A stretch of 64,000 nucleotides of DNA, from NCBI GenBank assembly GCA_019359445.1, contig JAHHHJ010000008.1:124001-188000 (forward strand), given 5' to 3'. The notes under the pieces are model-generated. The model ran no database searches. It worked only from the letters and a program-made list of their open reading frames with translations, and was not told where the DNA came from. This stretch comes from Kastovskya adunca ATA6-11-RM4. Lineage in GTDB: Bacteria; Cyanobacteriota; Cyanobacteriia; Cyanobacteriales; Coleofasciculaceae. Position 1 is the first letter of the stretch; every line of letters begins with the position of its first letter. The position numbers and the translations under genes were made by a program. Shown piece by piece: positions 54,445-58,421 of this stretch.

Positions 54445-54481
54445 GTTTCAATCCCTAATAGGGATTAGTAGAAGTTTAAAC
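54445..54481. repeat. isolated degenerate CRISPR repeat
   Basis: The first 22 bases match the array repeat (GTTTCAATCCCTAATAGGGA then TT), while the last 15 are altered. It lies 317 bases left of the first intact repeat. Degenerate repeats mark the end far from the leader, so the leader should be on the right. Confidence 0.85.
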
Positions 54482-54798: not shown

Positions 54799-57700
54799 GT
54801 TTCAATCCCTAATAGGGATTATTGGTATTTGAAACTAGGTTAGTATGTTACTGCCTAAGGTATAAGCCAGAGTACTCTGTTTCAATCCCTAATAGGGATT
54901 ATTGGTATTTGAAACGAAAAAGCAAAAAGAGGAGGTTAAAAAAAGCGTAGTTTCAATCCCTAATAGGGATTATTGGTATTTGAAACGAAAATGCAAGTCT
55001 GGGTTTAAATCTGAGAAAAGAAGTTTCAATCCCTAATAGGGATTATTGGTATTTGAAACTTTCATCTACTCTCCTTTAGCAGCTTGGAGGAAATAGTTTC
55101 AATCCCTAATAGGGATTATTGGTATTTGAAACAGTTGCTAACAAAATGCGTTCGACAATTGTTACTGTTTCAATCCCTAATAGGGATTATTGGTATTTGA
55201 AACCTTGAGTGATTGTGTTTTGGTAGCTACTGAGCAACGTTTCAATCCCTAATAGGGATTATTGGTATTTGAAACTCAGTTGGTGAATGTGAACGAGCGA
55301 TTCCTTGATTTGTTTCAATCCCTAATAGGGATTATTGGTATTTGAAACATAAGTGGTTTTGCCGATCGGATAAAAGAGGCTGGTTCAAGTTTCAATCCCT
55401 AATAGGGATTATTGGTATTTGAAACCTTGGTGGTGCTGGACGACTTGATTAAATCCCCGTTTCAATCCCTAATAGGGATTATTGGTATTTGAAACTCATT
55501 CTTTGAAAGAAACCCCTCGCTAGTCTGGAGTTTCAATCCCTAATAGGGATTATTGGTATTTGAAACCCGATCCACGTAAACGTGAGTAATTGGATACAGG
55601 CGACACGTTTCAATCCCTAATAGGGATTATTGGTATTTGAAACCTGCTCTTTCCCTAAACCGCGCCGCGCTTCCAAAAGAGAAGATGTTTCAATCCCTAA
55701 TAGGGATTATTGGTATTTGAAACACTTATAGATTGGTGATCTATGGTTCCCACCGTTACCGTTTCAATCCCTAATAGGGATTATTGGTATTTGAAACCAC
55801 TTCAGCTAATATGCTGGATGCTACCAGAAGCAGGTTTCAATCCCTAATAGGGATTATTGGTATTTGAAACTGGCTGGAAATAAGCCAGGAAGCCTTACGG
55901 GAATCCCAGAAGCAGGTTTCAATCCCTAATAGGGATTATTGGTATTTGAAACGGATGTAATTGGGGATGATGATGATAGCTATTCATGTTTCAATCCCTA
56001 ATAGGGATTATTGGTATTTGAAACGATTCAATGCTTAAGGGTAGTAGAACGAACTTAAACGTTTCAATCCCTAATAGGGATTATTGGTATTTGAAACTGT
56101 AGGTAATAGGGTTTATACGATTTAGTTAAATGTTTCAATCCCTAATAGGGATTATTGGTATTTGAAACTAGCTTGCTTTTGTTTCAATGCTAATAGATAG
56201 TCTTGTTTCAATCCCTAATAGGGATTATTGGTATTTGAAACGCAGCACAACCAAGCCGGGGGGATGTTTGAATGGTTTCAATCCCTAATAGGGATTATTG
56301 GTATTTGAAACTCAATCCGTTGACCGCTAAAGTAACCAATTTAAATGTTTCAATCCCTAATAGGGATTATTGGTATTTGAAACCTTATCTAAAGTTATTA
56401 GTACGGTGCCAGGATATTTATTAGTTTCAATCCCTAATAGGGATTATTGGTATTTGAAACTAATATTTTGATGGTGAGTAGTTATCTTCCTAGTTTCAAT
56501 CCCTAATAGGGATTATTGGTATTTGAAACAGGGAAATAAGCCCTACTTCTCCCCCCTCCTCCAAGTTTCAATCCCTAATAGGGATTATTGGTATTTGAAA
56601 CCTGTGGTTCCTTTTGGAATCTCCTTTGCTCTCAAGATTGCCGGTTTCAATCCCTAATAGGGATTATTGGTATTTGAAACGATTCTCAGCGGTCTGTAAC
56701 CTGCTGGGCAAGGGGTTTCAATCCCTAATAGGGATTATTGGTATTTGAAACACCAGTTGCAAGAGATTTTTAAAGCTTCCTTCTCTGGTTTCAATCCCTA
56801 ATAGGGATTATTGGTATTTGAAACGTCCGGGTCTTTGCCCCGGCATAGCAATCGCTCTGTTTCAATCCCTAATAGGGATTATTGGTATTTGAAACCATTT
56901 AGGTCTTTGTGAAGAAGTAAGGCATCATCATCCAGCGAGTTTCAATCCCTAATAGGGATTATTGGTATTTGAAACGTCGCCAGTCGCAACCATTGACGAC
57001 GCAGCAGCTCGTTTCAATCCCTAATAGGGATTATTGGTATTTGAAACCGGATAGCCTTTTCCGCTTCACTCACCCAGCTAGGGTTTCAATCCCTAATAGG
57101 GATTATTGGTATTTGAAACTCGCTGAGTCCAACCGAAGCGTTGCCTCAAGCATTGCTAAAAGTGCGTTTCAATCCCTAATAGGGATTATTGGTATTTGAA
57201 ACCTCGGATCTCTGGGGGCAAATCTCGAAGGATGGCGTTTCAATCCCTAATAGGGATTATTGGTATTTGAAACCCGCGTTCACCCGGAGCAATGCCCGTA
57301 AATATTTGGTTTCAATCCCTAATAGGGATTATTGGTATTTGAAACCTGAGCTGGATTGTGGGTAAGCAGTACTCCCAGTGTTTCAATCCCTAATAGGGAT
57401 TATTGGTATTTGAAACCTACAGACTGATCGACTGACCTAGCTCCCTTCAGGTTTCAATCCCTAATAGGGATTATTGGTATTTGAAACAGGCGATCGCTTA
57501 GAACTTTTAGTAGCCAGCCTCATTCAAGGTTTCAATCCCTAATAGGGATTATTGGTATTTGAAACTATTTCCTCCAAGCTGCTAAGGGGGAATGATGAAG
57601 TTTCAATCCCTAATAGGGATTATTGGTATTTGAAACCGCCTACATTAAAGGCATCTATAAGGTACTTTTCATGTTTCAATCCCTAATAGGGATTATTGGT

Positions 57701-58157
57701 ATTTGAAACCTGACTTGGCGGCAAGTGCTTCTTGCACCTAAATAGTTTCAATCCCTAATAGGGATTATTGGTATTTGAAACTATCCCTCAACAACATTGG
57801 CGAATTGAGAAATATTGTTTCAATCCCTAATAGGGATTATTGGTATTTGAAACGCAGAGTGTCATCCAGCATTCCATAGAGCCTGTCTCCTAGTGTTTCA
57901 ATCCCTAATAGGGATTATTGGTATTTGAAACGGCGGTTGATCAATTCCTGTCCCCTCTCTCTTGAAGTTTCAATCCCTAATAGGGATTATTGGTATTTGA
58001 AACAACTGTCTGTTCTCGCTTTTGGCGGGCAGTATTTTCTTTGGTTTCAATCCCTAATAGGGATTATTGGTATTTGAAACCCAACGCATCGTGTTACTAG
58101 GTGGTGGTACACCTCGACCTGTTTCAATCCCTAATAGGGATTATTGGTATTTGAAAC
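54799..58157 (-). CRISPR. CRISPR array, 46 intact 37-nt repeats
   Basis: The repeat on the plus strand starts GTTTCAATCCCTAATAGGGA and ends TTGGTATTTGAAAC; I counted 46 intact copies with first bases from 54799 to 58121. Spacers are about 33-45 nt (mean near 37). On the minus strand each repeat ends in GGGATTGAAAC, giving the 8-nt ATTGAAAC handle usual for type I and III crRNAs, and the internal AATCCCTA/TAGGGATT can form a stem. The degenerate repeat on the left and a promoter on the right agree with leftward transcription. No cas gene is in the window, so the type cannot be fixed; repeats of this kind occur with type I-D and III systems in cyanobacteria. Confidence 0.97.
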
Positions 58158-58219
58158 TGCGGCAGCCTGAAAAGCTTGGTGTATTTAGTTTTCGAGGTGC
58201 AGTTGCGCGAATGGAAAAT

Positions 58220-58249
58220 ATTATAGCATTTGAGGGAGGGAAGCGCCAA
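58220..58249 (-). promoter_or_regulatory. leader promoter of the CRISPR array
   Basis: On the minus strand TTGGCG (58249-58244) and TATAAT (58225-58220) are 18 bases apart, about 62 bases before the last repeat. It would transcribe the array leftward. Confidence 0.65.
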
Positions 58250-58421
58250 AAACCTGAAAAAGACTCTTGGCGAAAATCACCTTCAGACAAGGGTTTCAGC
58301 CACGGCGCGGATCGGTTTTGAGGTAGATAGGGGTGAAATCCTTGTAGCAGGAGGGATAGAGGCAGATCAAAACGCGATCGCCTCCCAACACCTACCCATC
58401 CGCGCTCGGAACCGTTCAAAC

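Follow-up and report, generated by a model that had tools for sequence, protein, structure and literature searches.

Two spacers of one CRISPR array in Kastovskya adunca ATA6-11-RM4, spacers 4 and 38, carry the same 20 bases in opposite directions. We consider it likely, with a probability of about three in four, that they stem from separate immunizations, each against the homologous site in one of two related invaders (or in one of two variants of a single lineage), and that spacer 4 was acquired first. The array lies in the 64,000-nucleotide stretch of contig JAHHHJ010000008.1 that was analyzed (positions 124,001 to 188,000; here, the window), and coordinates are counted from the first base of that stretch. 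The targeted site would be a gene junction, where the final codons of one gene (...YFLQAAKGE-stop) meet the start codon of the gene that follows.

The shared sequence

Spacer 4 (55060 to 55095, minus strand) is 36 nt long and its guide begins with TATTTCCTCCAAGCTGCTAA; spacer 38 (57566 to 57599, minus strand) has 34 nt and a guide beginning with TTCATCATTCCCCC. The shared 20-mer, TTAGCAGCTTGGAGGAAATA, occupies 55076 to 55095 of spacer 4 on the plus strand and, as its reverse complement, 57566 to 57585 of spacer 38 on the minus strand. Both spacers and their 20-base match had been reported in the first-pass annotation with coordinates that proved exact, and the storage of the two in opposite directions is plain in the sequence. 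The same annotation placed TTCATC at the far side of both; the motif is indeed found in each, at a distance from the 20-mer that differs, 9 bases in spacer 4 (55067 to 55075) and 8 in spacer 38 (57586 to 57593), so that aligning it between the two needs a gap of one base.

When all 990 spacer pairs of the array were compared in both orientations, the longest common substring was 20 for spacers 4 and 38 and 11 for the next best pair, while the maxima in 20 sets of shuffled spacers ranged from 9 to 12, which rules out a chance origin of the 20-mer. In the 5.09-Mb assembly the 20-mer, with up to 2 mismatches, occurs nowhere outside the two spacers. Self-targeting was likewise rejected with a 30-nt pattern covering both spacers (up to 3 mismatches) and with the whole of spacer 38 (up to 3 mismatches), for both of which the two spacers are the only matches in the host genome.

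Array, leader, and order of acquisition

The array (54799 to 58157) is built of 46 identical, regularly spaced copies of a 37-nt repeat (GTTTCAAATACCAATAATCCCTATTAGGGATTGAAAC) separating 45 spacers, and its assignment to the minus strand follows from the leader. The latter lies at 58158 to 58260 on the minus strand (the outer edge is approximate), with a conserved motif at 58181 to 58209. Aligned leaders have in common the motif CGCGCAAC.G[CT]ACCT.GAAAA, together with the 3' part of the repeat, in five arrays of the genome: the window array, those on contigs C10, C11, and C13, and a second array on the same contig as the window. A -10 promoter-like box, ATGCTATAAT, is found at 58220 to 58229 on the minus strand; it is exact in four of the five arrays and variant in C10. 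Since the leader lies to the right of the array, from 58158 onward, the guides would come from the minus strand, with ATTGAAAC as what we take to be the guide-RNA handle. Spacer 38 is the 8th from the leader and spacer 4 the 42nd of 45, so spacer 38 is presumably the newer; the leader on the right thus supports the earlier suggestion of one older and one newer guide.

A pair of neighboring spacers agrees with this direction. Spacers 14 (55798 to 55833) and 15 (55871 to 55915) both carry CCAGAAGCAG right up to their leader-side ends. No match at that end is longer among the 22,578 spacer pairs of six arrays, and the 45 nt of spacer 15 can be divided into 35 + 10. The arrangement suggests an insertion in which the repeat was duplicated along with 10 bp, about one helical turn, of the spacer that was then first, as agrees with a right-hand leader. 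Spacer 19 (56169 to 56204) contains GTTTCAATGCTAATAG, a near-match to the start of the repeat; the likeness is not significant among 45 spacers (an equal score in 2 of 900 shuffles), and spacer 18 ties with it. A lone variant repeat lies at 54445 to 54481 on the minus strand, 317 bp past the array's old end. Its sequence is that of the 37-mer unit found most often (8 of 23) in the sister array on the same contig, an array starting about 15 kb beyond the one in the window; it is not a decayed copy of the neighboring repeats. HIP1 is a cyanobacterial mark, and 71 copies of GCGATCGC were counted in the window.

The differing bases look coding

An ungapped alignment on the 20-mer covers 34 positions of spacers 4 and 38 and shows 8 differences, which all fall to the same side; the first three are spaced exactly three bases apart. 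Spacer 4 can be read as TAT TTC CTC CAA GCT GCT AAA GGA GAG TAG ATG AAA and the opposite strand of spacer 38 as TAT TTC CTC CAA GCT GCT AAG GGG GAA TGA TGA A. Both give YFLQAAKGE followed by a stop (YFLQAAKGE-stop-MK in spacer 4), with the K, G, E, and stop codons spelled differently, and the start codon in ATGAA either directly follows the stop or overlaps it. In this frame (frame 0 of the reverse strand), the residue or stop is kept in 10 of 11 codons, four of which have another spelling, and the one changed codon comes after the stop; with four silent and one changed, it is the best of the six frames. Placing eight differences at random among the 14 bases outside the core reproduced this signature in 2 of 20,000 trials, and free placement did so in 135 of 20,000; the trials took the best of six frames and used random substitutions without a model of mutation bias. 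The opposite strand holds a partly competing coding frame, which reads SPLAAWRK in both spacers.

Because the differences fall as silent codon changes, the two spacers probably derive from homologous DNA, as had been proposed. The likeliest source would be one gene junction present in two related invaders. On the other strand TTCATC becomes GATGAA, which contains the ATG of a possible second gene, and its one-base shift can be accounted for by the spacing from stop to next start, which is free to vary. Gene and invader alike are read here from 36 bases.

The silent changes also bear on whether spacer 38 could have been made from spacer 4 by copying or inversion within the array, an idea that their related sequences and common array might invite. 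The flanking repeats are not inverted, the lengths are 36 and 34 nt, and the differences resemble silent codon changes rather than random decay; we reject such copying on the first and last of these grounds and give it practically no credence.

Related spacer pairs elsewhere in the genome

All 213 spacers of six arrays were compared (22,578 pairs); 8 shuffled sets gave a best score of 9.5. Gaps of more than 60 nt between repeats were excluded from the spacer count (one each in the window array, C10, and C11), 47 exact repeats of C16 were used against 48 copies listed, and the spacers of C29b are possibly one base short, as the first base of its 37-mer varies. Six pairs scored above 9.5, namely at 23.5, 15.5, 14.0 (spacers 4 and 38), 13.0, 12.0, and 10.0, and a seventh tied at 9.5. 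The top pair, C10_46 and C13_5 (L018 and L019), joins different arrays; its members are identical at 31 of 36 positions in the same orientation and read ARDIQ(R/M)HGHQFK with three silent changes. A pattern for this pair had a single viral match, in a frame outside the listed ORFs there and judged to be chance, BLAST of the spacer returned only 17-base matches, and no target was found. Each of the four other pairs scoring 23.5, 15.5, 13, and 12 has a frame with three or four silent codons, a signature that is weak by itself, since 1,314 to 2,026 of 20,000 trials reach the same; the marginal pair at 10 lacks it, with two silent against five changed codons. By orientation, the six pairs divide into four with the same direction and two with opposite directions.

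Repeated sampling of related invaders therefore seems common in this genome, and a single opposite pair is not remarkable. These pairs also weigh on the proposal that one invader with two diverged copies of the gene, as paralogues or an inverted repeat, gave both spacers. Two versions in opposite orientations are equally expected from one such genome, but the other related pairs, which occur inside single arrays as well as across them, are in keeping with repeated infections by related elements, and we regard a single two-copy source as improbable.

Searches for the target

A search of the spacers against phage and plasmid collections, as proposed in the first-pass annotation, gave partial matches, and neither spacer had a convincing protospacer in any of the viral, phage, plasmid, and genome collections that were searched. 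BLAST against phages returned 8 records for spacer 4 and 2 for spacer 38, all partial, with at most 61% query cover and a best E value of about 1; against plasmids it returned one partial record and none, respectively. In two overlapping sets of 97 and 388 genomes, both including the host, only the host matched. Low yields of this kind are usual; the excerpted text of PMC8482600 gives matches for 11% of I-D spacers.

Pattern searches gave similar results. In viral contigs there were no matches for the 20-mer, for YFLQAAKGE-stop, for FLQAAKGE-stop, or for the pattern with third positions free. LQAAKGE-stop had three, which are two starts of the microvirus gene VP4 read backwards and one larger contig, the last judged to be chance. 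Genome contigs gave no pattern matches; with third positions free there were five, in records not named as cyanobacteria, and none was seen to continue ...KGE-stop. In one of the five (L118), YFLQAANGE runs to the border of the retrieved sequence, but the frame has only 56 residues and lies inside a 496-residue ORF of another frame; we attribute all five to chance.

The VP4 matches raise the question of whether the target is the start of this replication gene in a single-stranded DNA microvirus. The reverse reading of the spacers, IYSPLAAWRK and HHSPLAAWRK, resembles M-x-C-Y-S-P-L-A-A-W-K, two of the three degenerate-pattern matches in viral contigs are VP4 starts, and one of those proteins, when scanned, was a PHROG replication initiation protein. 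At such starts the closest DNA matches score 22 of 36 and 21 of 34 (L034), above the control maxima of 20 and 18, but they sit in loci that were picked by a spacer-derived pattern. Over the best 80 of at least 600 candidate stretches, all relatives of one query, the means do not differ from those of the controls (15.96 versus 15.89 and 14.91 versus 15.14). In these same best 80 of at least 600, a cysteine directly precedes the next conserved residue in 80 of 80 loci (it is residue 3 in 79, and the 80th match begins with it), where the spacers have I and H. The spacers also have no start codon in the usual place, the SPLAAWRK pattern matched eight viral contigs that are all at least 9.5 kb long (9.5 to 93 kb), and the VP4 frame has two silent and two changed codons against four and one in the preferred frame. 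On this comparison of sequences a microvirus VP4 target is disfavored and appears very unlikely.

BLAST of the whole array returned long matches that look like CRISPR repeats, as judged from coordinates and names, and three other arrays compared with phages gave repeat-like matches or none. Stretches matching the window array occur in Nostoc phages N1 and YongM and in Microcystis phages (records H10 to H18), and Microcystis phage LMM01 is annotated with a "56 bp repeat unit." The matches in records H10 to H18 are probably to the repeats of the array, and those stretches could be phage-borne arrays or repeat mimics.

Adaptation machinery of the host

No cas gene was evident beside the window array on inspection of the listed ORFs of at least 90 residues between 38000 and 64000, and searches for the Cas1 and RAMP families found no match on the contig of the window. 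Type I-D genes for Cas1, Cas3d, Cas10d, Csc2, Csc1, Cas6d, and Cas4d are located on contig C13, where a 90-aa ORF is Cas2-like by eye. The C13 array adjoins these genes and has the same leader as the window array. A type I-B system is also encoded, with its own, different repeats. Contig C36 carries a type III-D-like effector (L114:3421-15965) with Cas10, Csx19, a CARF-PDDEXK nuclease, Csx3, and a WYL regulator; no array of the window's repeat group was found within the surrounding 20 kb, and neither of the two Cas1 matches of the genome lies there. The PAM of type I-D is GTN.

As the leader of the orphan array equals that of the array linked to I-D genes, we infer, with the leader as the sole basis, that the orphan array uses the I-D machinery; the type I-D adaptation genes on another contig would then have inserted both spacers. 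The arrangement is like the sharing known between type I and type III systems in that arrays distant from cas genes share the leader and the 3' half of the repeat with an array of a Cas1-bearing type I system and in that the type III effector has no Cas1 match nearby. Unlike the type I/III combinations counted in the excerpted literature, mostly I-B with III, the shared leader here belongs to type I-D. According to the excerpted text of PMC8482600, type III repeat clusters without adaptation genes of their own show a PAM 95% of the time, which is interpreted as pointing to type I adaptation in trans. For another cyanobacterium, the excerpted text of PMC10715143 describes orphan arrays along with sharing that may link I-D and III. 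Cas10d, Csc1, Csc2, Cas6d, Cas3d, Cas4d, and Cas1 with an array are found as in the type I-D systems of the cyanobacteria Synechocystis and Microcystis, but the window array differs from these in lying on another contig and having a variant repeat (as far as the excerpts of PMC10212523 describe them).

Separate captures or priming

The opposite directions of spacers 4 and 38 need no special cause because type I-D adaptation has no strand orientation bias, as stated in the excerpted part of a type I-D review (PMC10212523). They would reflect the chance of how each captured fragment went in rather than a special attack on two strands. For a DNA-cutting complex the direction of a guide should make little difference. 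The minus-strand guides would serve the I-D complex, which acts on DNA, and possibly also the encoded type III-D-like complex; if an RNA-binding type III complex used them, only one of the two guides could pair with the messenger, that of spacer 38 in the preferred frame.

With the direction set by the leader, the 20 seed-side bases of spacer 4 match the sequence of spacer 38. The first 20 bases of the old guide would thus fit the newer invader's version perfectly and mismatch it at the far end, and the newer guide would restore a full match. A perfect fit over the first 20 bases with a poor one beyond may be a setting in which type I systems prime, and a partly matching old guide with a newer spacer at the same site is like type I primed adaptation. 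The old guide may have bound the newer invader, with weak cutting and a stalled complex that recruited the adaptation proteins, so that a replacement spacer was taken at that very site in the other orientation. The array direction speaks for such a course, since under it the old guide pairs perfectly in its seed region and mismatches distally, as does a new spacer that covers the same site with one boundary identical. Against it, the excerpted text of the 2023 review states that there are currently no data on I-D priming (PMC10212523), the genome has further pairs of related spacers, of which four share one orientation, and chance overlap suffices, as by our own estimate about 0.8 overlapping pairs would be expected from 30 spacers against one 40-kb phage family. 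We consider primed reacquisition unlikely, and less likely again its fuller form, in which the I-D system reimmunized the cell by priming where silent mutations had weakened guide 4 and placed the new spacer in the orphan array.

A probable record of repeated infection

Taken as two separate captures, spacers 4 and 38 are a clear but ordinary trace of repeated infection and belong to ordinary CRISPR biology. So read, they document on a small scale, and in order, repeated encounters of one host with related invaders. A pattern of silent codon differences between paired spacers can indicate a coding target without any sequenced invader, and with several related pairs over six arrays, this genome would be well suited to asking whether type I-D systems prime.
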